From assembly GCA_947174575.1 (NCBI GenBank), contig CAMWJM010000002.1, positions 1 to 22,448 of the forward strand: 22,448 nt of DNA, read 5' to 3'. Shown piece by piece: positions 1-14,078 of this stretch. Position numbers and translations under genes: made by a program. The notes below the pieces were generated by a model, which was given only the letters and a program-made list of their open reading frames with translations, was not told the DNA's origin and ran no database searches. This DNA is from an uncultured Alistipes sp. Its GTDB lineage: Bacteria; Bacteroidota; Bacteroidia; Bacteroidales; Rikenellaceae. Each line of letters begins with the position of its first letter. Positions within the stretch are counted from its first letter, which is position 1.

Positions 1-332
1 ATCCGCAACCCGAATGGTTCTACGACCTCTGCGACGAACTGGGCCTCTATGTCGTCGACCGGGCGAACATCCATGCCCCCGAGCACCGCACCGACCGCCG
101 CGTGGGCGGCACGCCCTCGAACGATCCGGCGCTCGTCGACCGCTATCTGGAGCGCGTGCAGACGATGTACTACCGTTCGCGCAACCACACCTGCGTGGCG
201 GCCTATGCGCTGGGCGGCGAAGCGGGCAACGGCTACTGCCTCTACAAGGCCTACCAGTGGCTCAAATCGGTGGAGCGCAACCGCCCGATCCTCTGCGTCG
301 ACGCCGACGGCGAATGGAACAGCGACTTATAG
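1..332 (+). CDS. Glycoside hydrolase family 2 (beta-galactosidase-like), C-terminal fragment
   Basis: Partial gene: the 5' end lies before the window, and the frame is open from base 3 to the TAG at 330-332 (109 codons). The visible protein looks like the end of a GH2 TIM barrel. It begins with PEWFYDLCDELGLYVVDRAN, the strand-helix pattern around the substrate pocket. It continues with YYRSRNHTCVAAYALGGEAG, where the Glu of GGEAGNG matches the acid/base Glu of the LacZ-type GNEAGNG motif. The following WLKSVERNRPILCVDADGEW matches the next barrel strand. LacZ-family proteins normally have 'DEAN' and 'GNEAG'; here 'DRAN' and 'GGEAG' are seen, so specificity may differ. The protein stops soon after this strand, without the usual C-terminal beta domains, so it is either a short GH2 variant or truncated. 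The family call is firm; the substrate is unknown. Confidence 0.8.
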   Translation, partial: PQPEWFYDLCDELGLYVVDRANIHAPEHRTDRRVGGTPSNDPALVDRYLERVQTMYYRSRNHTCVAAYALGGEAGNGYCLYKAYQWLKSVERNRPILCVDADGEWNSDL

Positions 333-340
333 CAAACAAA

Positions 341-513
341 GCCCCGAACGATGCCGGAGCCGTCAGCGAGAAACGGACTAAAAGCGTCCGGCGGAGGGGA
401 CGATCTGCTCGCAGATCCGCGAAGTCGCCCGCAGCCAGCGTTAGTCCGTTTCGGAGCAGGCGACGGTGATCGTCGGGCGGTTTCGGCTCCGCCTTTTGCC
501 ATCAAAAGGCGGG
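341..513 (+). repeat. Structured intergenic element, family 1, copy A
   Basis: This fills most of the 206-bp gap between the GH2 gene and rlmH. Sequence blocks shared with copy B (minus strand, 13769-14020) include CGGACTAAAAGCGTC, GGCGGAGGGG, CAGCGTTAG and GGAGCAGG. Predicted helices by eye: 371-380 with 442-451 (AAACGGACTA/TAGTCCGTTT, 10 perfect pairs); 402-408 with 411-417 (GATCTGC/GCAGATC); a closing stem of about 344-352 with 469-477, plus GCCGTC with GACGGT; and a 3' hairpin 489-498 with 503-512 (CCGCCTTTTG/CAAAAGGCGG, loop CCAT). No T-run follows the last hairpin, so it is not a classic terminator. No credible ORF is seen here. It could be a repetitive extragenic element or a transcribed structured RNA. 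Confidence 0.7.
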
Positions 514-538
514 AAAGAGAAAAGCGATTCATTTGGAA

Positions 539-1012
539 ATGACTCTTGAGTTGATCGTCATAGGCAAAACCGACTCTAAAGAGGTCGCCGCGCTGGTGGA
601 GACCTACGCCCGGCGTGTGAACCGCTATTGCAAGTTCACCCTCACGGTGTTGCCCGACGTGCGCGACACGCGCAAGCTCACGCCCCGCCAGCAGGCCGCG
701 GCCGAGGGGGCGGCGATCCTGCGGCAGCTCGCCGAGGGCGACTTCGTGGCACTGCTGGACGAGCGGGGCGAGGAGATGCGCTCGGTGGAGTTCGCCTACT
801 GGGTGCAGAAACGCATGAACAGCGGCGTGAAGCGCCTGGCGATGGTCATCGGCGGCCCCTACGGCTTCTCCGACGAGGTGTATGCCCGGGCCGATGCGCG
901 GCTGTCGCTCTCGCGCATGACTTTCTCGCATCAGATCGTGCGGGCGATCTTCGCCGAACAGATCTACCGGGCATTCACGATACTCAACAACGAACCCTAT
1001 CACCACGAATAG
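539..1012 (+). CDS. rlmH: 23S rRNA (pseudouridine1915-N3)-methyltransferase RlmH
   Basis: Cytoplasmic SPOUT methyltransferase that methylates N3 of pseudouridine 1915 in helix 69 of 23S rRNA, using SAM, on assembled 70S ribosomes. The protein is 157 aa from the ATG at 539, the normal RlmH length. It starts MTLELIVIGKT, as family members do. The SAM-binding knot motif VIGGPYGFSDEV begins near residue 103, followed by SLSRMTFSHQIVRAIFAEQ and the typical C-terminus AFTILNNEPYHHE. A TTG six bases upstream (533) is in frame but would add only two residues and has no better ribosome site. The gene is first in the plus-strand run; the next start codon is 9 bp after its stop. It is a housekeeping gene, so its link to the following envelope genes is probably positional only. 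Confidence 0.96.
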   Translation: MTLELIVIGKTDSKEVAALVETYARRVNRYCKFTLTVLPDVRDTRKLTPRQQAAAEGAAILRQLAEGDFVALLDERGEEMRSVEFAYWVQKRMNSGVKRLAMVIGGPYGFSDEVYARADARLSLSRMTFSHQIVRAIFAEQIYRAFTILNNEPYHHE

Positions 1013-1021
1013 ACCGACAGG

Positions 1022-3295
1022 ATGCGACTCTTCAGATCGACGACATCTCTGCTGCTGCTCATGGCGGCCTTTCGTGCGGCGGGTGCGGTTCCTGCAGGCG
1101 CGGAGCGGGTCGAGGCCGACACGACCATCGTCGTGGACAAGGTGCAGGTGACGGCGATCAAGCAGGGAACGGTGCTGCGCGCGCAGCCCGTGGCGTCGAC
1201 CATCGCGGGCCGCCGGACGATCGAACGCGAACGCATCGAAGCCCCCAAGCAGCTGGCCCGCCGGGTGCCCAACCTCCACATGCCCGACTACGGGTCGCGC
1301 ATGACCTCGTCGATCTATGTGCGCGGGTTGGGGGCGCGCATCGACCAGCCGGTCATGGGCATGAACGTCGACAACGTGCCGGTGATGAACAAGGACTGCT
1401 ACGACGCCGAGCTGACCGACATCGACCGCATCGAGGTGCTCCGTGGCCCCCAGTCGACGCTCTACGGCCGCAACACCATGGGCGGGGTGATGAACATCTA
1501 CACCCTTTCGCCCCTCGCCTACCGGGGCACGCGGCTGCGGGCCGAATACGGCAGCGGCGACACCTGGCGCGCCTCCGCATCGACCTACCACCGCATAGGC
1601 GACGACTTCGGCGTGGCGCTGACGGGCCGCTACATGCGCTCGGCCGGCTTCTTCCGGAACCTCGCCACAGACCGGCGGTGCGACCGCGAGGAGTCGGGCG
1701 GCGGCCGCTTCAAACTCCAGTGGCGCGACAAGAAAGGGCTGCGGATCGACAACACGCTGGCCTTCTCGCTGCTCGACCAAGGCGGCTACCCCTACCGATA
1801 TGTCGGCGAAGAACTCCTGCACGAAGGCCAATCCGTCATTCGCCCCGGCGAAATCCGCTACAACGACCCGGCGGGCTACTGCCGCACGACCGTGAGCGAC
1901 GGAGTGACTGTGCGCTACGACGCCGGGAGCTACTCCATCTCGTCAATCGCCTCCTACCAATATTCCGACGACGCGATGACGCTCGATCAGGATTTTCTGC
2001 CCCTGTCGTACTTCACGCTCCGGCAGGCCCGCACCGAACACACGGCCACCGGCGAGCTGGTGTTCCGCTCGCGCGAGCAGGGGCGCTACCGGTGGCTCGC
2101 AGGGGCATTCGGCTTCTACCGCCACTCGACCATGCAAGCACCCGTGCGCTTCAAGCGCGACGGCATCGACAAGCTGATTCTCCAAAACGCCAATAGCAAT
2201 CCGGAACTCCTTCGCTACGAAACCGACGCCCGGGAGCTGCTGCTCGCGTCGGATTTCCGCAACCCCGCCTGGGGCGCAGCGCTCTACCACGAATCGACTC
2301 TGCAGCTCGGGCGCTGGAGCCTTGCTGCCGGCATTCGTCTCGACTACGAACACACGAAGCTGCGCTATCGCAGCCGGGCCGAATTCCCCTACCGCCTCTC
2401 CGTCGAGGGCGCACCGGCCGGCACCCACACCGCTGCGATCGACGACCGCGACGCTCTGGTGCGCTCCTATCTGGAGTTTCTGCCCAAAGTCACGGCGATG
2501 TACCGCTTCGACCCGGAGCGCAACCTCTACTTCTCGGTGGCCAAAGGCTGCAAATCGGGCGGATTCAACACCCAGATCTTCTCCGACATCCTGCAGGAGA
2601 AGCTCAAGGGCCACATGCTCTCGGGCACGGACGACAGCGACCCCGGCGCCATGTCCTACGCCCCGGAGACGAGCTGGAATTTCGAGCTGGGCGGCCACTT
2701 CTCGTGCGCCGAGGGGGTGGTGCGGGGCGACTTCGCGCTGTTCTGGATCGAGTGCCGCGACCAGCAGCTCACCGTCTTCCCGCAGGGCACCTCCACGGGC
2801 CGTATGATGACCAACGCGGGACGGTCGCGCAGCCGCGGAGCCGAAGCCGCGCTGCAAATCGTACCCCGCAACAATGTGACGATCGACGCCTCCTACGGCT
2901 ACACCGACGCCCGCTTCGTGCGCTACGACGACGGGCACGCCGACTATGCGGGCAACCGCATCCCCTATGCTCCGGCGCATACGTTCGCGCTGGGGGCCGA
3001 ATGGTCGATCCCCACGGGCGTGGAGTGGCTGGGCGACCTCGTGCTGCGGGCGGGCGCCCACGGCGCGGGCGGCATCCGCTGGAACGAAGCCAACACGCTG
3101 CGCCAGCCGTTCTACCTCGTCGCCGACGCGTCGCTGCGGCTCGAACAACGCCGCTACGCCCTCGATTTCTGGGGCCGCAACCTGGGCGACGCACGCTACG
3201 AGGTCTTCTACTTCAAGTCCATGGGCAACGAATTCGTACAACGGGGCCTGCCCCGCACCATAGGCATCACCTTATCCATAAATATAGAACGATGA
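1022..3295 (+). CDS. TonB-dependent outer-membrane receptor (non-SusC type)
   Basis: A 757-aa outer-membrane active transporter. A signal peptide occupies about residues 1-28 (MRLFRSTTSLLLLMAAF, cleavage near AGA). A likely TonB box, DTTIVVDKVQVTAI, lies close behind it. The plug domain covers roughly residues 50-160 and includes SSIYVRGLGAR, RIEVLRGPQSTLYGRNTMGG and MNIYTLSPLAY. The rest is a beta barrel of alternating aromatic-rich strands (for example NLYFSVAKGCKSGGFNTQIF and SWNFELGGHFSC), ending VQRGLPRTIGITLSINIER. There is no N-terminal carboxypeptidase-regulatory-like domain and no SusD partner, which argues against a glycan SusCD system. The layout resembles receptors for iron complexes, haem, cobalamin or similar small ligands, but the sequence does not show the ligand. 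The stop overlaps the next lipoprotein start (ATGA), suggesting the two work together. Confidence 0.9.
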   Translation: MRLFRSTTSLLLLMAAFRAAGAVPAGAERVEADTTIVVDKVQVTAIKQGTVLRAQPVASTIAGRRTIERERIEAPKQLARRVPNLHMPDYGSRMTSSIYVRGLGARIDQPVMGMNVDNVPVMNKDCYDAELTDIDRIEVLRGPQSTLYGRNTMGGVMNIYTLSPLAYRGTRLRAEYGSGDTWRASASTYHRIGDDFGVALTGRYMRSAGFFRNLATDRRCDREESGGGRFKLQWRDKKGLRIDNTLAFSLLDQGGYPYRYVGEELLHEGQSVIRPGEIRYNDPAGYCRTTVSDGVTVRYDAGSYSISSIASYQYSDDAMTLDQDFLPLSYFTLRQARTEHTATGELVFRSREQGRYRWLAGAFGFYRHSTMQAPVRFKRDGIDKLILQNANSNPELLRYETDARELLLASDFRNPAWGAALYHESTLQLGRWSLAAGIRLDYEHTKLRYRSRAEFPYRLSVEGAPAGTHTAAIDDRDALVRSYLEFLPKVTAMYRFDPERNLYFSVAKGCKSGGFNTQIFSDILQEKLKGHMLSGTDDSDPGAMSYAPETSWNFELGGHFSCAEGVVRGDFALFWIECRDQQLTVFPQGTSTGRMMTNAGRSRSRGAEAALQIVPRNNVTIDASYGYTDARFVRYDDGHADYAGNRIPYAPAHTFALGAEWSIPTGVEWLGDLVLRAGAHGAGGIRWNEANTLRQPFYLVADASLRLEQRRYALDFWGRNLGDARYEVFYFKSMGNEFVQRGLPRTIGITLSINIER

Positions 3296-3819
3296 TCGAA
3301 CGACTCTTTCTGCTCGCTTGCGCAGCCCTCGCGCTGGGGGCCTGCGACGATCGCGACGACGCAATCCGCTTCGCCGCCGAAAACACCGAGATCGAGGACG
3401 GGCACCTCTCCGGCACGAACATCCATTTCCTCGGCACGGCGACGAGCACCTCGGCCGACGGCGCCGTATATACGGACACCGATGCCGAATTCGAATTCGC
3501 CGGTCTCGACGACTTCACCCTCTACATGCACCGCACGCGCTTCGCCGCGGCGATGCCGGCCCTCGAAATGCGGCTCTTCGCCCAGCCCTACACCCCCGGC
3601 ACGGGAACGTCGCTTTCGTTCGATCTGGAGCGCGTCGTACCCGAAGTGCGGCTGCCCAACGAGGTCGGGGGAGGATATACCTACAAACCCATGGAGGCCT
3701 ACGCGCTCACCGAGGTCGAGGGGGCGATCGACGGGGTGCAATGCCGCGTGAGCTTCTCGTGCGACGTACCCCGACTGGGCCTCTACCGCGTAGAATACAA
3801 CGGCAAATTAGTGAAATAA
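3292..3819 (+). CDS. Small beta-rich surface-type lipoprotein (possibly calycin-like)
   Basis: A 175-aa lipoprotein. It starts at the ATG that overlaps the receptor stop (ATGA, 3292-3295). The reading frame is open far upstream, but only this ATG gives a proper signal peptide: MIERLFLLACAALALGAC with lipobox LGAC and Cys18. The Cys is followed by DDRDD, an acidic stretch of the kind that acts as a surface-export signal in Bacteroidetes, so an outer-leaflet or surface location is plausible. The mature part is rich in predicted beta strands (FLGTATSTSADGAVY, AEFEFAGLDDFTLYMHRTRF, YRVEYNGKLVK at the end). It resembles the small calycin-like lipoproteins often found beside Bacteroidetes TonB receptors, but that family call is tentative. 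Translational coupling to the receptor suggests a role in ligand capture. Confidence 0.75.
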   Translation: MIERLFLLACAALALGACDDRDDAIRFAAENTEIEDGHLSGTNIHFLGTATSTSADGAVYTDTDAEFEFAGLDDFTLYMHRTRFAAAMPALEMRLFAQPYTPGTGTSLSFDLERVVPEVRLPNEVGGGYTYKPMEAYALTEVEGAIDGVQCRVSFSCDVPRLGLYRVEYNGKLVK

Positions 3820-3831
3820 AATTTTTTGAGT

Positions 3832-4686
3832 ATGAAACCCGAATACCGACCTTTCGTCGATGAGTTGATCGGACTCTGCATCCGCGAGGACATCGGCGAC
3901 GGCGACCACACGTCGCTCTCGTGCATCCCCGCCGACGAACACGGCCGCATGCGCCTGCTGTGCAAGCAGGAGGGCACGATCGCCGGCATCGAAATCGCCG
4001 AACTGGTACTGCGCCGGCTCGATCCCGACGTGAAATTCGAACAGCTGCTCCGCGACGGCGACCGCGTGAAGCCGGGCGACGTGGCGTTCTACGTCGCGGG
4101 ACGCCTGCGCTCGCTGCTGCAGGCCGAACGCATCCTGCTGAACATCATGCAGCGCATGAGCGGCGTGGCGACGCAGACGGCCGTCTATGTGGCCCGCCTG
4201 GAGGGGCTGCACACCCGCGTGCTCGACACCCGCAAGACCACGCCGGGCATGCGCGTATTGGACAAGATGGCCGTGAAGATCGGCGGCGGCGAGAACCACC
4301 GCATGGGGCTGTTCGACATGATCCTACTGAAGGACAACCACATCGACTTCGCGGGCGGCATAGGCCCGGCGATCCGCGGCGCGCGCGAATACCTCGCCGC
4401 CAAGGGCAAGACGATCCCCATCGAATGCGAGGTGCGCTCGCTGGAGGACATCGACGAGGTGTTCGCCGCCGGGGGCGTCGACCGCATCATGTTCGACAAC
4501 TTCACGCCCGAGCAGACGCTCCAAGCCGTGCGCAAGGTGGCCGGACGCTGCGAAACCGAATCGAGCGGCGGCATCACCCTCGACAATCTGCGCCAGTATG
4601 CCGAGTGCGGCGTGGACTTCATCTCGGTGGGTGCGCTGACCCACCAAATCAAGTCGCTCGACATGTCGCTCAAGGCCTGCGAATAA
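3832..4686 (+). CDS. nadC: Quinolinate phosphoribosyltransferase (decarboxylating) NadC
   Basis: Converts quinolinate and PRPP to nicotinate mononucleotide, CO2 and PPi, the entry of the de novo pathway into NAD. The protein is 284 aa, the standard length for type II PRTases. Visible signatures are REDIGDGDHTS near the N-terminus, ERILLNIMQRMSGVAT, the substrate-binding LDTRKTTPGMR, KIGGGENHRMGLFDMILLKD (basic pocket His, Arg and Lys), IECEVRSLEDI (acidic Glu) and RIMFDNFTPEQ (Asp). The C-terminus SSGGITLDNL...ISVGALTH completes the barrel. The ATG at 3832 is preferred over an in-frame TTG at 3826, as it gives the usual short N-terminal helix. It lies 12 bp after the lipoprotein stop and 9 bp before the next gene. 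No nadA or nadB is in the window. Confidence 0.97.
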   Translation: MKPEYRPFVDELIGLCIREDIGDGDHTSLSCIPADEHGRMRLLCKQEGTIAGIEIAELVLRRLDPDVKFEQLLRDGDRVKPGDVAFYVAGRLRSLLQAERILLNIMQRMSGVATQTAVYVARLEGLHTRVLDTRKTTPGMRVLDKMAVKIGGGENHRMGLFDMILLKDNHIDFAGGIGPAIRGAREYLAAKGKTIPIECEVRSLEDIDEVFAAGGVDRIMFDNFTPEQTLQAVRKVAGRCETESSGGITLDNLRQYAECGVDFISVGALTHQIKSLDMSLKACE

Positions 4687-4695
4687 CCGCCCGTC

Positions 4696-6606
4696 ATGCG
4701 AAACATCCTCCATACGCCCGCGGCGCTGCTCGTGCGCCGCATCGCGCTGGTCTACGTCGTGCTGTGGCTCTGCCGCGCGATCTTCTACCTCTCGAACGCC
4801 GCCCAAATCGGAGCGATCGGATGGGCCGAAGCGGGGGCGCTGCTGCGCGGGTCGCTGCTTTTCGACACGGCATCGGCGGTCTATGCCGACGGCATCTTCA
4901 TCCTGCTGTCGCTGCTGCCACTGCCTTTCCGCTACCGGGAATGGTACGAGCGGCTCTTGTTCGTCTACTATGTCGCGGTCAACTTCCTATTGATCGTGGT
5001 CGCCAACCTGGCCGATGCGGTCTATTTCCGCTACACGCAGAAGCGTTTCACGGCCGACGAAATCTTCTTCGCCGACAACGACAACTCGCTGCTGCTGCTC
5101 GTCAGGTTCATGGGCGAGAACTGGTCGCTGCTGCTGGCAGCGGCCGCACTGCTGGCGCTGCTGGTCTGGGGCTACGGGCGCAAAACGCCCTGCCGGTCGA
5201 TGCTGCGGCCGGGGTGGTGCCGCTACCTCTCGGACACGCTGCTTTTCGCGCTGGCCGCCGGGCTGTGCGTGGCCGGCATGCGGGGCGGATTCACCCGCGC
5301 CACGCGGCCGATCACCCTCTCCAACGCCACGCTCTACACCACCGAGCCGGCCAAGGCCAACCTCATCCTGAGCAATCCGTTCTGCATCCTGCGCACGATC
5401 GGCAGCGCCGGCAAGGTGCACTACCGCAAGGATTATGCGGACGACGAGCTGCCGCAGCGCTTCACCCCCGAGCACCGGCCGGACGCCGCAAAGGCCCGAC
5501 CGGAAAGTCTGCGGGGTGCGCTGCAGGGGCGCAACGTGATGATCTTCATTCTGGAGAGCATGTCGGCCGAGCATTCGGCCCACCTGCGGCCCGACCTCTA
5601 TGCCGATCTGCCGGAGCAGGGATTCACGCCGTTTCTCGATTCGCTGATGCGCGAGGGGCTGACTTTCCGCCGCATGTATGCCAACGGCACGCGCTCGATC
5701 CAGGCGATGCCCTCGATCCTGGGGAGCATCCCCTCGTTCAAGACGCCGTTCGTGTTGATGCCGCAGTCGCTGGGACGCAGCCGCCAACTGCCGGCCATAC
5801 TGGCGGACAAGGGCTACGCGACGCTCTTTTTCTGCGGCTCGGAGCGCGGCTCGATGGGCTTCGGGGCCTATGCCCGCTCGGCGGGAATCGAGCGGCTGGT
5901 GAGCCGCGAAGACTACGAGGCGGCTCGCGGCACCGCCGATTTCGACGGCTACTGGGGCATTTGGGACGAAGAGTTCCTGCAATTCGCGGGCGAGGTGCTG
6001 ACCGAAACGCCGCAACCCTTCTTCGGCACGCTCTTCACCCTTTCGGCGCACCACCCGTTCGTGGTGCCGGAGCGCTACGCGGCGACGCTGCCCGAGGGCT
6101 ACACGCGCATCCACAAGGGCGTGGCCTACGACGATCGGGCTTTTCGCCGTTTCTTCGAGCGCTTCGGGCGGGAAGAGTGGTTCCGCAACACGCTGTTCGT
6201 GTTCGTCGCGGATCATGTGTCGTCGGAGAAGTTCGCGCCCGAAACCCGCGAATTCCCGGGCAGCCACCACATCGTGGGGTTCATGTACACGCCCGACGGC
6301 GCGCTGCGGGGCGAGATCGACCAGGTGACCCAGCAACTCGACCTCATGCCCACGATTCTGGGGCTTCTGGGCGACGAGGCGCCCTACTTCGCATTCGGCT
6401 GCGACGTGCTGGGCGAGCCGGAGCGCCCCCGCTGGGCCGTGAGCTACGACGGCGTTTTCCGAGCGCTGACCTCCGGGGGCACGACGACTTTCGACCATAC
6501 GCAGGCGCCGGCTCCCGATGCCGATTCGCTGGAACACGCGCTGCGGGCGCTCGTGCAGCAATACTACACCCATATCGAACACCAACGCTACGTGATCGAT
6601 GATTGA
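4696..6606 (+). CDS. LTA-synthase-family membrane sulfatase-fold transferase
   Basis: A 636-aa inner-membrane protein. The N-terminal third holds about five hydrophobic segments (near residues 15-31, 55-75, 86-108, 143-160 and 179-195). A sulfatase/alkaline-phosphatase-fold domain follows from about residue 280 and should face the periplasm. Predicted metal and catalytic residues follow the LtaS pattern: Glu288 in FILESMSAE, nucleophile Thr332 in ANGTRSIQAMPSI, His452 in SAHHPF, and Asp506-His507 in FVADHVSS. Gram-positive relatives polymerise glycerol phosphate. Gram-negative relatives transfer phosphoglycerol or phosphoethanolamine onto envelope glycans or lipids. The substrate here cannot be read from sequence, but a head-group transfer from phospholipid is likely. 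The next gene begins inside its last codons (8-bp overlap), and that gene also has an envelope-modification domain. Confidence 0.88.
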   Translation: MRNILHTPAALLVRRIALVYVVLWLCRAIFYLSNAAQIGAIGWAEAGALLRGSLLFDTASAVYADGIFILLSLLPLPFRYREWYERLLFVYYVAVNFLLIVVANLADAVYFRYTQKRFTADEIFFADNDNSLLLLVRFMGENWSLLLAAAALLALLVWGYGRKTPCRSMLRPGWCRYLSDTLLFALAAGLCVAGMRGGFTRATRPITLSNATLYTTEPAKANLILSNPFCILRTIGSAGKVHYRKDYADDELPQRFTPEHRPDAAKARPESLRGALQGRNVMIFILESMSAEHSAHLRPDLYADLPEQGFTPFLDSLMREGLTFRRMYANGTRSIQAMPSILGSIPSFKTPFVLMPQSLGRSRQLPAILADKGYATLFFCGSERGSMGFGAYARSAGIERLVSREDYEAARGTADFDGYWGIWDEEFLQFAGEVLTETPQPFFGTLFTLSAHHPFVVPERYAATLPEGYTRIHKGVAYDDRAFRRFFERFGREEWFRNTLFVFVADHVSSEKFAPETREFPGSHHIVGFMYTPDGALRGEIDQVTQQLDLMPTILGLLGDEAPYFAFGCDVLGEPERPRWAVSYDGVFRALTSGGTTTFDHTQAPAPDADSLEHALRALVQQYYTHIEHQRYVIDD

Positions 6607-7981
6607 ATTCCACCCCCTGCGGCCGGAAGACCGCCCTGCGATCGAACGCTACACGCTGACGTCCGACATCCGCAACTGCGACCTGGCGTTCGCCAACATG
6701 TACTGCTGGCAGGGGGTCTACCGCAGCGCGTGGGCCGAAGTCGAAGGGTTTCTGGTGGTGCGGTTCTACATCGACGGCGGCCCGCGAATCGGCTACATGC
6801 AGCCCGTGGGGCCGGGCGACTTCACCGGGATCGTCCCCCTGCTGGCCGACGACGCCCGGGCCTACGGCCAGCGGCTGCGGCTCGTCGGACTCACCGACGA
6901 GGGGTGCCGGGCGCTGCGCGAACGCTATCCGGGCCGCTTCGCATTCGATGCCGACCGGGCGCTGGCCGACTACATTTACGATGCCGAGGCGCTGCGCACC
7001 CTGCGGGGCAGCCGCTACCAGCCCAAGCGCAACCACTTCAACCGCTTCGCGGCCGAATATCCCGACTACCGCTACGAGGAGCTGACGCCCGAACGGTTCG
7101 CCGAGTGCATGACCCTCGAACGCGCATGGCGCCGCACCCACGAGGGGCACGCTGCGGAGCTGAACGCCGAACAGCGGGCCATGCAGCGGGCGTTCGAGCA
7201 CTTCGAAGCACTCGCCCTCTACGGAGGGTGCATCTATGTGGGCGACCGGCTCGCAGCGTTCACCTATGGCTCGGCGGTCGGCGAAGACACCTTCGTGACC
7301 CATGTCGAAAAGGCCGACACGGCGTTCGAGGGGGCTTTCACGGCGATCAACAAGCTCTTCGCCGAGCATCTGCCCGAACGCTTCGGGCGCATCAACCGCG
7401 AAGAAGACCTGGGGTTGGAGGGGCTGCGCCGCGCCAAGCTCTCCTACCACCCGTCGGAGCTGCTGCTCAAATACACGGCGATCGACCTGCGCGACGACGA
7501 AAAGGAGTGCAAAGAGCTGTGGCAAAAGGCATTCGGCGACGACGACGCGTTCGTCGACCGCTTCCTGACGCGCTACTACGACCCGCGCCGCATGCTCTCC
7601 GTCCGGCGCGACGGCCGTCTGGCGGCGATGCTCCACCTGCTGCCGTTCGACAGCGACGCCGGCCCCGTGAACTACATCTACGGCGTGGCGACCGACCCCG
7701 ACTTCCGCGGCCGGGGGCTGGCGTCGGAGTTGATGCGCCGGGCCGTGCAGCTGTGCGACCGGCGCGGCGAAACCGCCATGCTGATCCCCGCGCCGGAGCA
7801 GGCGTGGCTGCGCGACTTCTATGGGTGCTTCGGATTCACGGGTGCAGTGCCGGCGACGTTCGACGCAGCCGACGACTTCGACTTCGGCACGGGCGACCCC
7901 GACACCGACCGGGCCATGCTCCGGCTCCGCGACCCGGCAACGCCCCTGCCCGAACGGCTGACGTGTCATTACCGAAAATAA
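6599..7981 (+). CDS. DUF2156 (MprF-catalytic-like) / GNAT acetyltransferase fusion protein
   Basis: A soluble 460-aa protein with two acyltransferase-type halves. Residues about 1-290 match DUF2156, the catalytic fold of MprF-type aminoacyl-phospholipid synthases: LTSDIRNCDLAFANMYCW, the RYQPKRNHFNRF motif, FTYGSAVGEDTFVTHVEKAD, and INREEDLGLEGLRRAKLSYH. Residues about 300-460 form a GNAT domain: LWQKAFGDDDAFVDRF, RRDGRLAAMLHLLPF, then GVATDPDFRGRGLASELM, where R370-G-R-G-L-A is the acetyl-CoA pyrophosphate loop. I recall the two halves as separate proteins in other Bacteroidetes, so this appears to be a fusion. There is no transmembrane flippase part, unlike full MprF. Its start overlaps the LTA-synthase-like gene by 8 bp, so the two are probably co-translated. 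The substrate is unknown, possibly an envelope lipid or polymer. Confidence 0.82.
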   Translation: MIEFHPLRPEDRPAIERYTLTSDIRNCDLAFANMYCWQGVYRSAWAEVEGFLVVRFYIDGGPRIGYMQPVGPGDFTGIVPLLADDARAYGQRLRLVGLTDEGCRALRERYPGRFAFDADRALADYIYDAEALRTLRGSRYQPKRNHFNRFAAEYPDYRYEELTPERFAECMTLERAWRRTHEGHAAELNAEQRAMQRAFEHFEALALYGGCIYVGDRLAAFTYGSAVGEDTFVTHVEKADTAFEGAFTAINKLFAEHLPERFGRINREEDLGLEGLRRAKLSYHPSELLLKYTAIDLRDDEKECKELWQKAFGDDDAFVDRFLTRYYDPRRMLSVRRDGRLAAMLHLLPFDSDAGPVNYIYGVATDPDFRGRGLASELMRRAVQLCDRRGETAMLIPAPEQAWLRDFYGCFGFTGAVPATFDAADDFDFGTGDPDTDRAMLRLRDPATPLPERLTCHYRK

Positions 7982-7982
7982 G

Positions 7983-8008
7983 AAAGGTCCGGAAGTTTCC
8001 GGACCTTT
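7983..8008. terminator. Bidirectional terminator between convergent operons
   Basis: Perfect 12-bp inverted repeat AAAGGTCCGGAA-GT-TTCCGGACCTTT beginning 2 bp after the DUF2156-GNAT stop. On the plus strand it is followed by CGCTTT. On the minus strand it is followed by CTTATTTT. The A/T-ended GC stem therefore suits rho-independent termination in both directions, for the plus operon and for the deacylase at the end of the minus cluster (stop 72 bp away). Confidence 0.85.
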
Positions 8009-8080
8009 CGCTTTCAGCGCCTGCCGAAAACGTTTCGACAGCGGACAATCGATACGACTTTACGCCTTTCGGCTTCATTT

Positions 8081-8635
8081 TCAATGTGCAGGCTCGATAT
8101 CGGCCGGATTTTCGATAAGAATCGGCCGGCGCCCCAACAGTCGGAACAAATCCCGGTTGGAGATGGCGACGAACCCGCACGGATCGCCGTCGGTTATTAC
8201 GATCTTCTCTCTCTGAGCTACATCGCTATCCATAACGAACGTCACATCCCGGGCCTCTTCCCTGAGGAGTCCGAAAGGGGTGGCCGCTCCATGAGGCGTG
8301 CCAAGTATCTCTTTCATAAGCTCTTCTTCGGCGAACGAGACCCTCGGTATCTGCAATGCCGCCCCGAATTCTTTCGTTATGAAAGCCTTGCGGGCATGAG
8401 TCACATAGAGCCAGAATTTGTTCTTCTGGCGGTTGGCAAGCAGGATGGTCTTGACCGTTTCGATGCCGAATGCCCGGTCGATATGCAGGCAGTCGTCCAT
8501 CGATATTCCCGGGTCGCTCTCGATTCTCGTGTACGATATTCCCGAACTTTCCAGCCGTTCGTATATCATCTTCTGCATCTCCGACTTGAACGTAGCCGGA
8601 GCTTCGGTCATGATTTCACCGACATAAAATCCCAT
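8081..8635 (-). CDS. YbaK/ProX-type aminoacyl-tRNA deacylase (prolyl-tRNA synthetase-associated domain)
   Basis: A 184-aa stand-alone trans-editing protein of the INS/YbaK superfamily. Members hydrolyse mischarged tRNAs, typically Ala-tRNA(Pro). Features seen: an N-terminal helix and strand MIYERLESSGISYTRIE; FGIETVKTILLANRQKNKFW, where Lys62 aligns with the conserved catalytic Lys; KAFITKEFGAALQIPRVSFA; the loop GTPHGAATPFGLL in place of the family GxxxP region; and DPCGFVAISNRDLFRLL near the end. These favour the PrdX/ProX subgroup over the Cys-tRNA-specific YbaK subgroup. The ATG at 8635 (preceded by GGAAAAG) is used; an internal ATG at 8611 would remove 8 residues and is also possible. 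It lies 40 bp after folD and may be the last gene of the purine cluster transcript. Confidence 0.85.
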   Translation of the reverse strand: MGFYVGEIMTEAPATFKSEMQKMIYERLESSGISYTRIESDPGISMDDCLHIDRAFGIETVKTILLANRQKNKFWLYVTHARKAFITKEFGAALQIPRVSFAEEELMKEILGTPHGAATPFGLLREEARDVTFVMDSDVAQREKIVITDGDPCGFVAISNRDLFRLLGRRPILIENPADIEPAH

Positions 8636-8675
8636 CTTTTCCGATTGTAAGTTGAAGTTGTGATTATTTGTCCCA

Positions 8676-9524
8676 TTACTCCCGCCTGCGCAGGAAGCAC
8701 TCGATGGTGTTTTCCAGCAGGCAGCAGATCGTCATGGGGCCGACACCGCCGGGCACGGGCGTGATGACCGAAGCCTTGGGTTCGACGGCCGCGAAGTCGA
8801 CATCGCCGCACAACTTGCCCGTCGCGGGGTCGCGATTGACCCCCACATCGACGACCACGGCGCCCTCGGCCACCATGTCGGCCGTGATAAACTTCGGCTT
8901 ACCGATCGCCACGACGAGGATTTCGGCCCGGCGCGTCACCTCGGCCAGGTCGCGCGTGCGGCTGTGGGCCACGGTGACGGTGGCGTTCTCGTCCAGGAGC
9001 AGCTTGGCCACGGGCAGCCCCACGATGTTGCTGCGCCCCACGACCACCGCTTCGCGCCCGGCAATCTCCACGCCCGCCGCCTTGAGCATAGCGATGATGC
9101 CCTTGGGCGTGCAGGGCAGCGTGCAGGGCTGTTTCTGCCACAGGGCCGCCACATTGAGCGGGTGGAAGCCGTCGACATCCTTGCCTCGGTCGATCGCGGC
9201 GATGACCCGCGCCTGGTCGATATGCCCGGGCAGGGGCAGCTGCACCAGAATGCCGTCGACCTCGGGGTCGGCGTTCAGCTCGGCGATGAGAGCGAGCAAC
9301 TCCGCCTCGGAAATATCCGCAGGTTGGCGAATCGTCGTGTTGCGTATGCCCACCTCGGCCGAAGCCTTGGCCTTGCCAGTCACATAGCTGACGCTGGCGG
9401 GGTCGTCGCCCACCAGAATCACGACCAAATGGGGCACGCGCCCGTATTTCGCAGGGAAAGCCGCCACCTCGGCCGCCATGTCGGCCTTCAACTTCGCCGA
9501 AAGTTCTTTACCGGAAATTATCAT
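8676..9524 (-). CDS. folD: Bifunctional methylene-THF dehydrogenase / methenyl-THF cyclohydrolase FolD
   Basis: Interconverts 5,10-methylene-THF and 10-formyl-THF in the cytoplasm with NADP(H). Full length at 282 aa. Signatures in order: Tyr47 and catalytic Lys51 in SVSYVTGKAKASAEVG; GILVQLPLPGHID; GKDVDGFHPLN; the nucleotide-binding VVVGRSNIVGLPVAKLL, preceded by PCTPKGI; VVDVGVNRD; and the C-terminal ITPVPGGVGPMT. It lies downstream of purD in the same direction (109-bp gap with repeat sequences). Supplying 10-formyl-THF to PurH in the same cluster is the obvious link. An exact TAnnTTTG box lies just before the gene (9534-9541) but lacks an upstream partner. Confidence 0.97.
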   Translation of the reverse strand: MIISGKELSAKLKADMAAEVAAFPAKYGRVPHLVVILVGDDPASVSYVTGKAKASAEVGIRNTTIRQPADISEAELLALIAELNADPEVDGILVQLPLPGHIDQARVIAAIDRGKDVDGFHPLNVAALWQKQPCTLPCTPKGIIAMLKAAGVEIAGREAVVVGRSNIVGLPVAKLLLDENATVTVAHSRTRDLAEVTRRAEILVVAIGKPKFITADMVAEGAVVVDVGVNRDPATGKLCGDVDFAAVEPKASVITPVPGGVGPMTICCLLENTIECFLRRRE

Positions 9525-9569
9525 AAACTATTACAAATTTAACAGTTTGCGGACGCAGTCTGCGACCAG

Positions 9570-9608
9570 TTGCGGGCCTCCGCGGGGGAGGCTGCGGCCC
9601 GCACGGCT
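9570..9608 (-). repeat. GC-rich palindromic intergenic repeat, family 2, copy 1 (purD-folD gap)
   Basis: A 39-bp unit in the 109-bp purD-folD gap, matching 16281-16320 with one substitution and one single-base indel. It can fold: GCGGG/CCCGC enclosing CCTCC/GGAGG. A second small hairpin, ACGGCTC-AAA-GAGCCGT (9603-9619), overlaps its edge. Both copies have the same orientation relative to the purine genes. The rest of the gap holds an AT-rich tag at 9631-9659 and nothing that looks coding. Confidence 0.7.
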
Positions 9609-9633
9609 CAAAGAGCCGTCATTCGATTGTGAA

Positions 9634-10899
9634 TTATGAATTGTGCATTGTAAATTTTTCCAACGCCCAGTGTCCGATGTCGGAGCGGTGGAAGAGGTCG
9701 TCGCAGTCGATGCGGGCCACGTCGGCGAGTGCTTTCGCGCGCGCCTCGGCCAGCGTAGCGCCCTGCCCGACCACGAACAATACACGGCCGCCGGCAGTCA
9801 ACACGCGGTCGCCGGCAAGCTCCGTGCCCATATGATAGACCGTGCCGTCGAGAGCATCCAACCCTTTGATTTCGTGTCCTTTTTCATAAGTTCCTGGATA
9901 GCCTTTCGATGCCAGCACGATGCCTAACGTCGCCGTGTCGTGCCACTCCAACGTCGCTTCGCGGCCTTCGGCCACGGCGCAGAAGATGTCGACGATGTCG
10001 CTCCGCAGGCGCGGCAGCACCACCTCGGTTTCGGGATCGCCGAACCGGGCGTTGAACTCGATGACCCGGATGCCCTGCGCAGTCTTCATCAGCCCGCCGT
10101 AGAGCACGCCCCGAAACGGGCACCCCTCGGCGACCATGGCGTCGGCCACGGGCTGCAGAATGTGTTCCAAGGCATATTTCTCGTCGTCGGACGTGATGAA
10201 CGGCAGCGGCGAATAGGCCCCCATGCCGCCGGTGTTCGGCCCCCGGTCGCCGTCGTAAGCCCGCTTGTGATCCTGCGCGAGCGCCATGGGCCACACGCGG
10301 CGGCCCGACACGAAGCACATGAACGAAAATTCGGGGCCTTCGAGGTAGTCCTCCACCACGACTTTGCCCCGGCCGAACTTGTCGTCCAAGAGCATATCGC
10401 GCAGGGCGGCGTCGGCCTCCTCGGGGGTCTGCGCGATGACGACCCCCTTGCCGGCAGCCAGGCCGTCGTACTTCAGCACGGCGGGAAAAGGACGAGACAA
10501 GACGTATTCCCGAGCGGCATCGTACTCCGTAAAGGCCTTGAAGTCTGCCGTGGGAATGCCGTAGCGGGTCATCAACTCCTTGGCGAACTCCTTGGACGAC
10601 TCGATGCGGGCGGCGGCTTTCGTAGGCCCGAAGATCCGCAGCCCCGCGACCTCGAACGCATCGACGACGCCCGCCGCCAACGCCGCCTCCGGCCCCACGA
10701 CCGTGAGTCCGATGCCCTCGGCCGCGGCGAAGTCGCGCAGCCGCTCGACCTCGGTCCCGCGGATCGCCACGCACTCGGCCTGCCGCGCGATGCCCGCGTT
10801 GCCGGGGGCGCAATAGATTTTTTCGACCTGCGGCGAGCGGGTCAAGGCATCTACTATGGCGTGTTCGCGGCCGCCGGAACCGATTACAAGTACTTTCAT
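9634..10899 (-). CDS. purD: Phosphoribosylamine-glycine ligase (GAR synthetase) PurD
   Basis: Second step of purine synthesis: joins glycine to phosphoribosylamine with ATP. 421 aa, the usual bacterial length. Seen: the N-terminal KVLVIGSGGREHAI and CAPGNAGI; the ATP-grasp segment FPAVLKYDGLAAGKGVVIAQ; PEFSFMCFVSG; the GGMGAYSP motif; FNARFGDPETEVVLPRL, with the metal-binding Glu and Asn region; and a C-terminal domain ending DLFHRSDIGHWALEKF. The last five residues (TMHNS) and the stop come from an AT-rich TGCACAATTCATAATTCAC-type sequence that looks like intergenic tag DNA, so the tail may have been replaced without harm. It is separated from purH by a large structured inverted repeat (10922-11044). 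Confidence 0.97.
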   Translation of the reverse strand: MKVLVIGSGGREHAIVDALTRSPQVEKIYCAPGNAGIARQAECVAIRGTEVERLRDFAAAEGIGLTVVGPEAALAAGVVDAFEVAGLRIFGPTKAAARIESSKEFAKELMTRYGIPTADFKAFTEYDAAREYVLSRPFPAVLKYDGLAAGKGVVIAQTPEEADAALRDMLLDDKFGRGKVVVEDYLEGPEFSFMCFVSGRRVWPMALAQDHKRAYDGDRGPNTGGMGAYSPLPFITSDDEKYALEHILQPVADAMVAEGCPFRGVLYGGLMKTAQGIRVIEFNARFGDPETEVVLPRLRSDIVDIFCAVAEGREATLEWHDTATLGIVLASKGYPGTYEKGHEIKGLDALDGTVYHMGTELAGDRVLTAGGRVLFVVGQGATLAEARAKALADVARIDCDDLFHRSDIGHWALEKFTMHNS

Positions 10900-10921
10900 A
10901 CAAAGATGTTTATTTCAATCT

Positions 10922-11044
10922 ATTTCCGTTTATCAGGCGAGCAGGTTTTGCCTCGACCGAAGACCGAGGGGCGGGAGCATACCCGACGTATGCGACTGCC
11001 CTGAGGTCAAGAAGAGGTGAAAGATGCTGCATGAAAATGGAAAT
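10922..11044 (-). repeat. Long structured inverted repeat with tandem-GA loops between purH and purD
   Basis: This element fills almost the whole 144-bp purH-purD gap. The core is 10962-10981 paired with 10989-11008, read on the plus strand as GACC, GA, GGGGCGG, GA, GCATA, loop CCCGACG, TATGC, GA, CTGCCCT, GA, GGTC. All helix bases pair (two G-T wobbles), and the two internal loops are each 5'-GA/5'-GA, the tandem sheared-GA pattern. Outer arms continue the pairing: TTTTGCCTC (10946-10954) with GAGGTGAAA (11014-11022). They reach ATTTCC at the left end and GGAAAT at the right end with a few bulges. The right end runs into the purH stop codon. No T-run follows. Confidence 0.75.
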
Positions 11045-12573
11045 CAGTGTTTGAAGTGTCGTTCACCTACGAAACACATCGCTATTCCCTTTTCGTCGGC
11101 TTTGCGAATCGAATCTTCGTCGCGCACCGAGCCGCCGGGCTGGGCGATCGCCCCGACGCCGTATTCGGCCGCCAGGGCCACGCAGTCATCGAAGGGGAAG
11201 AATCCGTCCGACGCCAGCACCAAGCCCTCGGTATGTCCGGCGGCCCGGGCCTGCTTCAGGGCGATTTCGGCCGAGCCGATGCGGTTCATCTGCCCGGCGC
11301 CGACGCCCAGCGTCCGGCCCTCCTTGACCACGACTATGGCATTGGATTTGACGTGCTTGACGATGCGCCAGCCGAAGTTCAGATCGTCCAATTGCGCTGC
11401 CGTGGGCTGCCGCTGCGTGACGCACATTTCGGCCGCGACCGCCTTGGTCGCCGTGTCGAGTTCCTGCACCAAAAGCCCGCCGTTGACGCTCACATATTGC
11501 ATCGGAGCAGCTGCGCCGCGCGACATGTCGACCTCCAATAGTCTCAGGTTCTTTTTGGCGCCGAGCACCTCCAAAGCCCCTCGGTCGAACTTCGGAGCCA
11601 TGACGATTTCGAGGAACACGGGCTTCATCAGCTCGGCGACCTCGCGCGTCAGGGGACGGTTGGTGGCCACGATGCCGCCGAAGATCGATACCTTGTCGGC
11701 CTCGTAGGCTTTCCGCCACGCGTCGACGACATCGGTGCCCACGGCTGCGCCGCAGGGATTCATATGCTTCAACCCCACGCAGAACGGCTCCTCGAACTCG
11801 CGGACGATGCAGAGGGCGGCATTGGCATCCTGGATGTTGTTGTAAGACAACTCCTTGCCGCCCAACTGCCGTGCGAATGCCAGCGAATAGGGCACGGCCT
11901 CGGCCTGGCGGTAGAACCTGGCCCTCTGGTGGGGATTCTCGCCGTAGCGCAGCGGCTGCACGAGGTCGAATTCGAGGAACAGCTTCTCGTTCAGCCCCGC
12001 CTGCGCCCGCATGTAGGCGGCGATCATGGCGTCGTACTGCGCCGTGTGGGTGTAGGCCTTGGCCGAAAGACGCAGCCGGGTAGCCCGGTCGGTATGGCCG
12101 CCGGCGCGAATCTCGGCGAGCACCTGTGCGTAATCTTCGGGATCGCACACGACCGTGACGTCGGCCCAGTTCTTGGCCGCCGAACGCAGCATCGAGGGGC
12201 CGCCGATGTCGATGTTCTCGATAGCCTCCTCCATACGCACGCCGGGCCGCGCGATGGTCTCGCGGAACGGGTAGAGGTTGACGCACACCAGATCGATGCA
12301 CTCGATGCCGTTGTCCCGCAACGCCCGCAGGTGCTCGGGGTCGTCGCGGCGCGCCAGCAGCCCTCCGTGCACCTTGGGATGCAGGGTCTTGACCCGGCCG
12401 TCGCAAATCTCGGGAAAGCCCGTCACCTCGCTGATATTGAGCACCTCGACGCCGCTGTCGCGCAGCAACTGCATGGTGCCGCCCGTGGCGATCACCTCCC
12501 AACCCTGCTCGCGCAGGCCCCGGGCGAATTCGACGACGCCCCGTTTGTCGCTCACACTGATTAAAGCACGCAT
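11044..12573 (-). CDS. purH: Bifunctional AICAR transformylase / IMP cyclohydrolase PurH
   Basis: Catalyses the last two steps to IMP, formylating AICAR with 10-formyl-THF and closing the ring. 509 aa, typical. The N-terminal MGS-like cyclohydrolase domain (about residues 1-190) shows ALISVSDKRGVVEFARGL, VIATGGTMQLLRDSGV, and EICDGRVKTLHPKVHGGLLA. The transformylase domain shows LRYGENPHQRARFY, GKELSYNNIQDANAAL, the catalytic Lys-His in GLKHMNPCGAAVG, KHVKSNAIVVVKEG and GVGAGQMNR, and ends FVGERHFKH. It lies 124 bp downstream of purM; that gap carries a coding remnant rather than a clear promoter. FolD, encoded two genes downstream, supplies its one-carbon donor. Confidence 0.98.
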   Translation of the reverse strand: MRALISVSDKRGVVEFARGLREQGWEVIATGGTMQLLRDSGVEVLNISEVTGFPEICDGRVKTLHPKVHGGLLARRDDPEHLRALRDNGIECIDLVCVNLYPFRETIARPGVRMEEAIENIDIGGPSMLRSAAKNWADVTVVCDPEDYAQVLAEIRAGGHTDRATRLRLSAKAYTHTAQYDAMIAAYMRAQAGLNEKLFLEFDLVQPLRYGENPHQRARFYRQAEAVPYSLAFARQLGGKELSYNNIQDANAALCIVREFEEPFCVGLKHMNPCGAAVGTDVVDAWRKAYEADKVSIFGGIVATNRPLTREVAELMKPVFLEIVMAPKFDRGALEVLGAKKNLRLLEVDMSRGAAAPMQYVSVNGGLLVQELDTATKAVAAEMCVTQRQPTAAQLDDLNFGWRIVKHVKSNAIVVVKEGRTLGVGAGQMNRIGSAEIALKQARAAGHTEGLVLASDGFFPFDDCVALAAEYGVGAIAQPGGSVRDEDSIRKADEKGIAMCFVGERHFKH

Positions 12574-12692
12574 AGATTATTTTTCGTTTTAAAATTTTCC
12601 GAATGATATTCCGAGCAGACGCGACCCTCGTCGGCTGCGAATCGCAGTACACAGTAATCGGGATCGTCGACCTCCTGCGGGCAGTATTCCGT
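12561..12692 (-). pseudogene. C-terminal remnant resembling a pyridoxamine-5'-phosphate-oxidase-family protein
   Basis: Right after the purM stop, the minus strand stays open for 43 codons in one frame. The peptide looks like real protein: TEYCPQEVDDPDYCVLRFAA, then DEGRVCSEYHSENF. From memory this matches the C-terminal pattern of pyridoxamine-5'-phosphate-oxidase-fold proteins of Bacteroidetes (YYPxGVDDPDYxVLxFTAxxG...). No start or N-terminal part exists, because upstream sequence in this frame lies inside purM. The frame runs into the purH start region before its stop. I read it as a leftover of a deleted gene. The family match is from recall, so confidence is low to moderate. Codon third positions are less GC-rich than in neighbouring genes. 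Confidence 0.4.
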
Positions 12693-12697
12693 GCGCC

Positions 12698-13723
12698 CTA
12701 CCGGATTACGACCCCCGGGGTATCGGTGATGCGGCCGATGACCGAGGCGCGCTCGCCGGCGGCGGCGAGGATCTCGATGGCCCGCGGCGCCTCGGAGGCG
12801 TCGAGTGCGATGACCATGCCGATGCCCATGTTGAAGATGTTGAACATCTCGCGGTGGGGCACCCGGCCGTGCTTCTCCAGGAAGCGGAAGACGGGCGGAA
12901 GCTCCCACGCGCCCTCGTCGACGGCGATGCCCTGACCCTCGCGGAGGATGCGGGGGATGTTCTCGTCGAACCCGCCGCCGGTGATGTGGGCGATGCCGTG
13001 CACGTCGCAGCGGCGGATCGCCTCCAGCACAGGCTTGACATAAATCTTCGTCGGCGCGAGCAGCACCTCGCCCAACGACCCGCCGGGCAGCTCGGGATAG
13101 CGCTCGTGCAGGTCGAGACCGCTGTCGGCGACGATCTTGCGCACCAAGCTGAAGCCGTTGGAGTGCACGCCGCTGGAGGCGATGCCCACCAGCACGTCGC
13201 CCGCAGCGACTTTCGATCCGTCGATCAGGCGCTTCTTCTCGACCACGCCCACCGTGAAGCCTGCGATGTCGTACTCGCCGTCGGCATACATGCCCGGCAT
13301 CTCGGCCGTCTCGCCGCCCACCAGAGCGCAGCCCGCCTGCCGGCACCCCTCGGCGACGCCGGCGACGATCACCTCGATCTTCCGGGGTTCGTTGCGGCCC
13401 ACGGCCACATAGTCGAGAAACAACAGCGGCTCGGCGCCCTGCGCCAGCACGTCGTTGACGCACATGGCCACGGCGTCGATGCCGATGGTGTCGTGCCTGT
13501 CCATGGCGAAAGCCAACTTGAGCTTGGTGCCCACGCCGTCGGTGCCGCTCACCAGCACCGGCTCCTCGACATGGAGCGCCCCGAGGTCGAACATGCCGCC
13601 GAAAGCCCCGATGCCCCCCATGACTCCCGGGCGCGAGGTCGAGGCGACATGTTTCTTGATGCGTCGCACCACTTCATATCCGGCTTCGAGATTCACGCCG
13701 GCCTTTTCATAACTTTCTGCCAT
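12698..13723 (-). CDS. purM: Phosphoribosylformylglycinamidine cyclo-ligase (AIR synthetase) PurM
   Basis: Fifth step of the pathway: ATP-dependent closure of FGAM to AIR. 341 aa from the ATG at 13723 ([19 protein letters not shown]), which matches the family N-terminus. The frame stays open to 13765, but those 14 residues ([14 protein letters not shown]) are not family-like. Signatures: [94 protein letters not shown] and the final NMGIGMVI. It is separated from purF by the widest gap in the cluster (355 bp), which holds structured element copy B, so its transcription may depend on read-through of that element or on a local promoter. Confidence 0.97.
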
Positions 13724-13768
13724 AAATCGAACTTTATATTTCCAAAATACTCGTTCCACATTCAACTT

Positions 13769-14020
13769 GCCGCTTTTCGTACCGGCGAAAAGCGGCGGAA
13801 AACCGACGCTCGCAGCATGAGCAGAGCCGCCGTAGGTGAGCTATGCCATGCAAGGAGGAGGAAAACAAGCGTAGCGCAGTTAAGCCTCTCCTTCCGATTG
13901 CCGGCACCTGCTCCGGGCGTCCTAACGCTGCTTCGGGCGCCTATTCGCGGGTTTGCAAGCAAACCGGCCCCTCCGCCGACGCTTTTAGTCCGCCCTCCGC
14001 CCAACGGTGCCGACATCGGG
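13769..14020 (-). repeat. Structured intergenic element, family 1, copy B (purF-purM gap)
   Basis: This occupies most of the 355-bp purF-purM gap. On the minus strand it shares blocks with copy A in the same order. Helices by plus coordinates: closing stem 14006-14011 with 13903-13908 (GGCACC/GGTGCC) and 14015-14019 with 13894-13898; 13986-13995 with 13915-13924 (GGGCG-GA-CTA/TAG-GA-CGCCC, tandem GA); hairpin 13950-13956 with 13959-13965 (GGTTTGC/GCAAACC); and 3' hairpin 13769-13779 with 13786-13796 (11 perfect pairs). Relative to copy A it has an extra ~90 bp with two more stems: 13885-13893 with 13852-13861, and 13815-13819 with 13847-13851. The rest of the gap (14021-14078) is AT-rich without features. 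The minus strand is open across it but does not look coding. Confidence 0.7.
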
Positions 14021-14078
14021 GCGGAATATCTTTCTTTATCCACAACATAATATATTGATATCCGTTTTTTCTCTTTTT

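Follow-up and report, generated by a model that had tools for sequence, protein, structure and literature searches.

Dispersed palindromes in bacterial genomes are often tied to Y1 transposases that cut short tagged hairpins. REP, BIME and REPIN sequences, which are mobilised by RAYT enzymes, are described in the accessible text of two reports as dispersed, gene-less extragenic palindromes that lie mostly in co-directional or convergent gaps and sometimes form inverted pairs (PMC3733652, PMC6006769). Palindromic repeats tagged with CGTC, some of them in Bacteroidetes, are reported in the accessible text of the former source to occur without a dedicated transposase (PMC3733652). The repeat element of Alistipes presented here resembles the RAYT-mobilised families in all the respects named, as well as the CGTC-tagged repeats in being palindromic and without a recognised dedicated transposase, and like REP and BIME sequences it is extragenic, avoids promoter gaps and is present in many copies. 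However, REP and BIME units measure 20–40 bp, carry a foot tag (GTAG/GTGG or CGTC) and have a cognate RAYT, whereas the Alistipes element comprises about 140 nt plus a second hairpin, lacks the tag, and resides in 27 carrier genomes, in none of which a Y1_Tnp domain was found. From the CGTC-tagged REPs it differs in having no terminal CGTC, in its far greater length, in its occurrence in one genus and in its strand-specific covarying fold.

MITEs, such as those of Porphyromonas gingivalis, are a further parallel, being short, gene-less, multi-copy insertions between genes, but the Alistipes element shows neither terminal inverted repeats (6 copies) nor a clear target-site duplication (68 copies). 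The RT-7 RNA (RF03028) is likewise structured, has multiple copies in some of these genomes and sometimes lies next to the element, but the sequence and fold of the two differ. The element is REP/MITE-like in habit and habitat, while the defining features of those classes that were tested, namely size, tag, resident RAYT and terminal repeats, are not those of the element. An initial sequence-only reading had proposed that the two copies represent either a family of structured RNAs or a mobile repeat of the REP/MITE type; of this proposal the covarying fold holds and mobility is supported, whereas strict membership in the REP or MITE class does not hold. We consider it probable that the family is a non-autonomous mobile element, the folded plus strand of which is recognised by a putative enzyme acting in trans.

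Architecture of the two window copies

The window, that is, the whole stretch of DNA analysed, comprises 22,448 nucleotides from an uncultured Alistipes sp. (GCA_947174575.1, contig CAMWJM010000002.1, positions 1 to 22,448). It holds two copies, A and B, with the features given below, in which rlmH, purF and purM are our labels for Pfam assignments.

342..513, + strand: copy A, whole element, short form, in the gap that follows the GH2 gene (stop 330-332) and precedes rlmH (ATG 539)
342..482, + strand: copy A, stem-loop 1 (long interrupted hairpin), covariance model match 1-140, 118 bits
396..430, + strand: apical core of copy A, GGGGAC-hairpin-CCGCGAAGTCGCCC, bulged asymmetrically on the 3' side
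489..512, + strand: copy A, stem-loop 2 (3' hairpin), CCGCCTTTTGCCATCAAAAGGCGG
13769..14025, - strand: copy B, whole element, long form, in the gap between purF (14079-15497, -) and purM (12698-13723, -)
13885..14025, - strand: copy B, stem-loop 1 (long interrupted hairpin), covariance model match 1-140, 152 bits
13935..13971, - strand: copy B, apical core GGGGCC-hairpin-CCGCGAATAGGCGCCC
13804..13884, - strand: copy B, additional arm (81 nt) that characterises the long form, lying between stem-loops 1 and 2
13769..13796, - strand: copy B, stem-loop 2 (3' hairpin), GCCGCTTTTCGCCGGTACGAAAAGCGGC
374-388, + strand (A) and 13978-13992, - strand (B): common block CGGACTAAAAGCGTC
390-399, + strand (A) and 13968-13977, - strand (B): common block GGCGGAGGGG
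436-444, + strand (A) and 13922-13930, - strand (B): common block CAGCGTTAG
453-460, + strand (A) and 13907-13914, - strand (B): common block GGAGCAGG
402-417, + strand (A, GATCTGCTCGCAGATC) and 13950-13965, - strand (B, GGTTTGCTTGCAAACC): apical hairpins

Both copies consist of an interrupted hairpin of about 140 nt, followed by a short 3' hairpin with CTTTT/AAAAG in its stem, and the element carries no gene. The blocks quoted in the sequence-only reading were all recovered in the sequence at the positions and on the strands it gave. The start of copy B lies at about 14025, not at 14020, and its extra arm, put at about 90 bp, is present with a size of 81 nt. The block GGAGCAGG is found five further times in the window and therefore carries little weight alone. 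The similarity of A and B is far above chance: a BLAST search of the 1.44-Mb genome with A recovered the core of B with an E value of 6.7e-15. Among 24 measured copies, 16 are 171–176 nt long, seven 253–259 nt and one 162 nt, and the extra arm is present in 7 of the 24. At one site, where the 5' flanks are near-identical, the short form in one genome (locus L036, G012) faces the long form in another (L097, G162), so that the arm is gained or lost as a module. The GH2 gene upstream of copy A (window 3-332) has a partial Pfam match, covering 59–163 of 302. Truncation of this gene by copy A was considered and rejected, as the reading frame of relatives, too, ends at this codon or close to it ahead of rlmH, and the gene is thus a short GH2 variant.

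Copy number and host range

A covariance model, R1, was built from 24 copies, and the best 18 candidates per genome were scored with it, so that all copy numbers are lower bounds. The original description of a two-copy element proved too modest, since BLAST found more copies in the same 72%-complete genome (G000), in which R1 gave at least ten matches, besides a 44-nt piece at a contig end on C28. Contig ends cut 4 of 10 model matches and one further fragment in this genome. Across the genus, where further copies had been suggested as a check, at least 143 matches were found in 27 of 180 genomes, with at least 17 in the richest single genome; seven of the carriers (G023, G044, G046, G048, G055, G096 and G185) have weak matches only (<55 bits). 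The search was extended to other Bacteroidales, also suggested at the outset, with a second covariance model built from 120 matches, and the element was not found in 392 other genomes of the order, with the best 8 candidates per genome scored. The exact 26-base core pattern, run over 84,980 species genomes, returned 72 stretches, all of them in Alistipes; among the named isolates with the core are Alistipes montrealensis kh20, A. muris DSM 112343 and Alistipes sp. An66.

Exact patterns gave zero matches in the IMG/VR viral contigs, and BLAST found no match for copy A among PLSDB plasmids or for the hairpin of B among INPHARED phages; carriage by phage or plasmid was rejected on these empty searches. 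Rfam provided no credible match for the element in the window or in the nine loci searched, and SNORA9, the sole match in the window, has an E value of 0.14 and is put down to chance. In text searches of the published literature, taken without supplements, and in Rfam, nothing was recognised as this family; the 250 palindromic structured-RNA candidates from human microbiomes that are mentioned in the accessible text of PMC8040213 may include it. Taken together, the searches suggest a genus-restricted repeat family, so far of Alistipes only.

The covarying fold and the folded strand

In the family alignment, 11 of the 41 pairs differ between A and B, eight of them on both sides and three on one side, with pairing kept in each case and none broken. 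Across the 120 matches of the model alignment, which was fitted to the model and is hence biased towards its structure, 95.9% of cells form standard pairs, compared with 79.6% when shuffled and 33–42% when slid, and two-sided change occurs at 38 of 41 pairs. The covariation test against shuffled and slid controls gave a score of 0.426 against 0.152. When 24 copies were aligned by MAFFT only, 14 of the 41 predicted pairs showed two-sided change. The compensatory change with retained pairing that had been noticed between the two window copies is thus confirmed for them and extends to the family. Neither of the outcomes named at the start as refuting the reading, a lack of further copies or a lack of covariation once more of them were aligned, came about. 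Single-sequence folding is better for copy A (z -3.89; equalled by none of 200 shuffles) than for copy B (z -1.79; equalled or surpassed by 13 of 200 shuffles), and since it is weak for B, the case rests on covariation. A search for stem-loop 2 was positive in 107 of the 120 matches, a few of which look like chance, but as a hit had to be complementary in three or more of its four outer pairs, this count is no evidence of pairing.

The most constant part of the element is the apical core, GGGG[A/C]CGGTTTGCTTGCAAACCCGCG..AG[T/G]CGCCC, around which the stems differ strongly between subfamilies among the rows listed. Distant relatives with changed core letters keep the fold, 37 of 39 cells being paired in L062 (G055) and 38 of 40 in L064 (G096). 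At two-species sites, the pair changes comprise five two-sided and three one-sided kept and one broken (L018/L068), four two-sided and three one-sided kept and two broken (L032/L079), one one-sided kept (L113/L123), and two one-sided kept and one broken (L036/L097). The apical loop of L096 (G053), L050 (G058) and L129 (G183) holds an insert of other sequence, about 45–80 nt long, which in L096 and L050 includes GCGAGTGCAAAG..ACTTTGCCGAG. By eye, a GC-rich mini-hairpin stands just 5' of the modelled element in G052 (L099-L108), and a CGCGG-type hairpin 3' of many copies in G049 and G051 (L110-L123).

A long interrupted hairpin with GTTAG near the stem is also a trait of attC sites, and an attC-like recombination site, whose folded strand would be recognised by an integron integrase, was weighed on account of this resemblance; the window copies, however, have ordinary genes as neighbours, purF and purM for example, and CTAAAAGCG/AGCGTTAG are missing in whole subfamilies, which makes such an origin barely credible.

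The strand that folds can be told from mismatched pairs, because selection on a double-stranded palindrome would leave G.U on one strand as common as A.C. In a sequence-only alignment of 78 copies, drawn from the 83 best rows and evaluated at pairs that are at least 80% Watson-Crick, the folded plus strand has 55 G.U and 6 A.C, while the minus strand, with its own predicted structure, has 7 and 43, respectively. With one row per 85% cluster (16 rows), the ratios of G.U to A.C are 16/2 on the plus strand and 3/13 on the minus strand, and the model alignment has 102 G.U and 23 A.C, or 22 and 4 in 80% clusters. In unpaired columns, G.U-making transitions are not in excess (130 against 163). Since the excess of G.U lies on the plus strand, as first read, and is inverted on the other, it is the plus strand that folds, either as RNA or as single-stranded DNA, and the data fit both. 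The same counts bear on the view that the element is a palindrome of double-stranded DNA that forms a cruciform or offers a binding site, or else that it is a passive repeat in which template-switch repair matches the arms, so that covariation would stem from mutation and not from selection. Imperfect palindromes can undergo arm correction, and the second hairpin is an almost perfect palindrome; but G.U outnumbers A.C when one strand is folded and is outnumbered by it when the other is, and bulges and internal loops have stayed uncorrected and persist across subfamilies, so that we regard this view as improbable.

Genomic setting, turnover and candidate mobilisers

Gene calls, made with a purpose-written codon-usage script rather than a published gene finder, place 116 of 117 distinct copies outside genes. 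Of the 75 copies with the best scores, 71 of which have a called gene on either side, 44 lie in co-directional settings, sense in 32 and antisense in 12 (p 0.004), and 20 lie in convergent gaps versus 7 in divergent ones (p 0.019), whereas among gaps of 100 nt or more that hold no element in these loci, 9 are convergent and 17 divergent; these p values ignore shared descent and are hence optimistic. The 42 lower-scoring relatives have no orientation preference (sense in 11 of 22). The claim that copies keep the same orientation relative to their flanking genes therefore survives as a bias among the best copies, not as a rule. The flanking genes are diverse, the largest related cluster among 377 proteins within 3 kb having 6 members, and the insertion junctions are A/T-rich. 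Inverted pairs of divergent element types, about 30–300 nt apart, were seen at L068, L069, L070, L071 and L075, mixed with other palindromic repeats in L070, L071 and L075.

Conserved gene junctions provide the evidence for mobility. The purF-purM junction could be read in 30 of 163 matching genomes, and the element is present in the window genome only, being absent from 29/29 others. Both flanks of the GH2-rlmH junction were found in 18 of 20 genomes searched, all 18 without copy A, and in five of these 3–11 nt separate the matched GH2 and rlmH. Likewise, the site of L106 (G052) lacks the element in 17/17 other genomes with both flanks, and that of L120 (G051) in 10/10. This pattern of presence and absence supports the mobile-element option of the sequence-only reading. 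Empty sites could also arise through loss, which is possible but unlikely, because nearly all relatives are empty. Relatives often hold other (palindromic) inserts in the same gaps, so turnover of intergenic DNA in general may explain part of the pattern.

An RNA function of the element is possible. A structured RNA acting in place would either form the 3' end of transcripts from upstream genes or be made as a small RNA, and would stabilise, process or regulate transcripts, with dispersal being secondary. The sense orientation of the folding strand in 32 of 44 co-directional settings, the G.U excess, which fits RNA, and the avoidance of divergent (promoter) gaps all speak for such a role, but the patchy distribution (27 of 180 genomes), the diversity of the flanking genes noted above, the fact that relatives manage without the element at the same sites, and the 12 antisense copies among the 44 speak against it. 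We give this explanation a modest but real chance.

Under the preferred reading of a mobile element, the likeness of copies within a genome is of interest. Mean identity within genomes is 0.92–0.98 in G012, G052, G053 and G184, compared with 0.77 between genomes, whereas in G000, G009, G049 and G051 it is 0.73–0.77, as diverse as between genomes. Uniformity of copies within every genome, which holds for the former four and fails for the latter four, was rejected. For 49 of 75 copies, the closest copy lies in the same genome. An identical element with the same neighbour distances occurs at L083:7898-8036 (G052) and L095:2012-2150 (G053), in genomes held as different species, which may reflect recent transfer or cross-contamination of MAGs.

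No terminal inverted repeats were seen at the ends of six copies compared by eye (TCCGCCCCGATG versus GCCGCTTTTTG or GCCGCTTTTCG), and the test for target-site duplication over 68 copies gave 3.868 for own pairs versus 3.914 for shuffled ones, with no overall excess. Exact-end matches of 4 nt were found in 8 of 68 copies versus 2.8 expected, and of 3 nt in 14 versus 6.9, these figures being the best of many offsets tried. At nearly all of the 68 junctions the 5' end reads [T/C]CC; the 3' end is formed by the strand that closes stem-loop 2.

Candidate mobilisers were sought among the genes of the carriers. Y1_Tnp, the RAYT/IS200-type domain, was found in 0 of 27 carriers, many of them incomplete MAGs; it is present in 2 of 40 genomes searched, both non-carriers, and in 5 of 14 control genomes. 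RAYT mobilisation by resident enzymes was rejected on its absence from 27/27 carriers. Of the 27 carriers, 19 have an RVT_1 domain and 8 have none, among the latter G049, which is 99% complete and has at least 9 element matches. Matches to RT-7 at E 0.001 occur in 11 of 27 carriers, and G049, G051 and G170, despite at least 9, 10 and 8 element matches, respectively, are among the 16 that lack one. A system of RT-7 and a diversity-generating retroelement (DGR) as a requirement for mobilisation was rejected on these 16.

The element may alternatively be a satellite of a DGR with an RT-7-matching template RNA, spread by the reverse transcriptase of that DGR. An RT-7-like 5' domain follows it in one genome (Rfam match at L028; short motif at L025, L030 and L021), and RT-7 with template-like sequence lies within a few hundred nt of L023 and L280. 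Yet most carriers, as counted above, have no RT-7 match, and the element and the RT-7 repeats occupy the same intergenic space, so that contact between them is to be expected; such a dependence is very improbable.

Several further observations concern RT-7 itself, which belongs to a DGR with template units both arrayed and dispersed in the genus. The match by L028 (L028:1738-1660) reaches 44.9 bits against a cut-off of 116.8, lies on the other strand and overlaps only the end of stem-loop 2. In G012, copies of the element at L025, L028, L030, L035 (by eye) and L021 are each followed by an RT-7-like 5' domain in inverted orientation, and these copies have left or right flanks in common, as if composite units had been copied. 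RT-7 precedes template- or variable-repeat-like DGR units at L262 (G007), L263, L264, L265, L266, L267 and L275. At L262, eight units of RT-7 plus about 230 nt are flanked on one side by a bAvd-like gene (37 bits against a cut-off of 40) and on the other by a gene for a reverse transcriptase, and at L264 there are ten units, some within a duplicated block. Dispersed RT-7 matches elsewhere number from 8 to at least 47 per genome in eight genomes. In the DGR-like units, variation is highest at consensus A (0.268), with T close to it (0.248), so that an adenine signature is not shown.

In the mechanism we favour, an enzyme supplied in trans would recognise the single strand (RNA or single-stranded DNA) in its folded state, probably by contacting the near-constant apical core, and would paste the element into A/T-rich gaps between genes, of which promoter-free gaps would tolerate insertion best. 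The mobilising enzyme need not reside in the carriers now; it would be neither a Y1 (RAYT/IS200-type) transposase of the carriers nor dependent on a resident DGR with RT-7 RNA. A more specific form of this idea, to which we assign a rather small chance, is a SINE-like element, in which a sense transcript or single-stranded DNA would itself move; machinery other than a RAYT-type transposase or the resident DGR reverse transcriptase would identify it through its fold and insert it in trans.

Copies of the element break assemblies; the new covariance model is usable for annotating them. What has been found is a long element of two hairpins whose covarying fold is specific to one strand, and it has spread in one gut genus, in whose carriers no Y1 enzyme was seen. 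Its mobiliser, if found, would represent either a new way of moving elements that carry no gene or a known enzyme in a new role.
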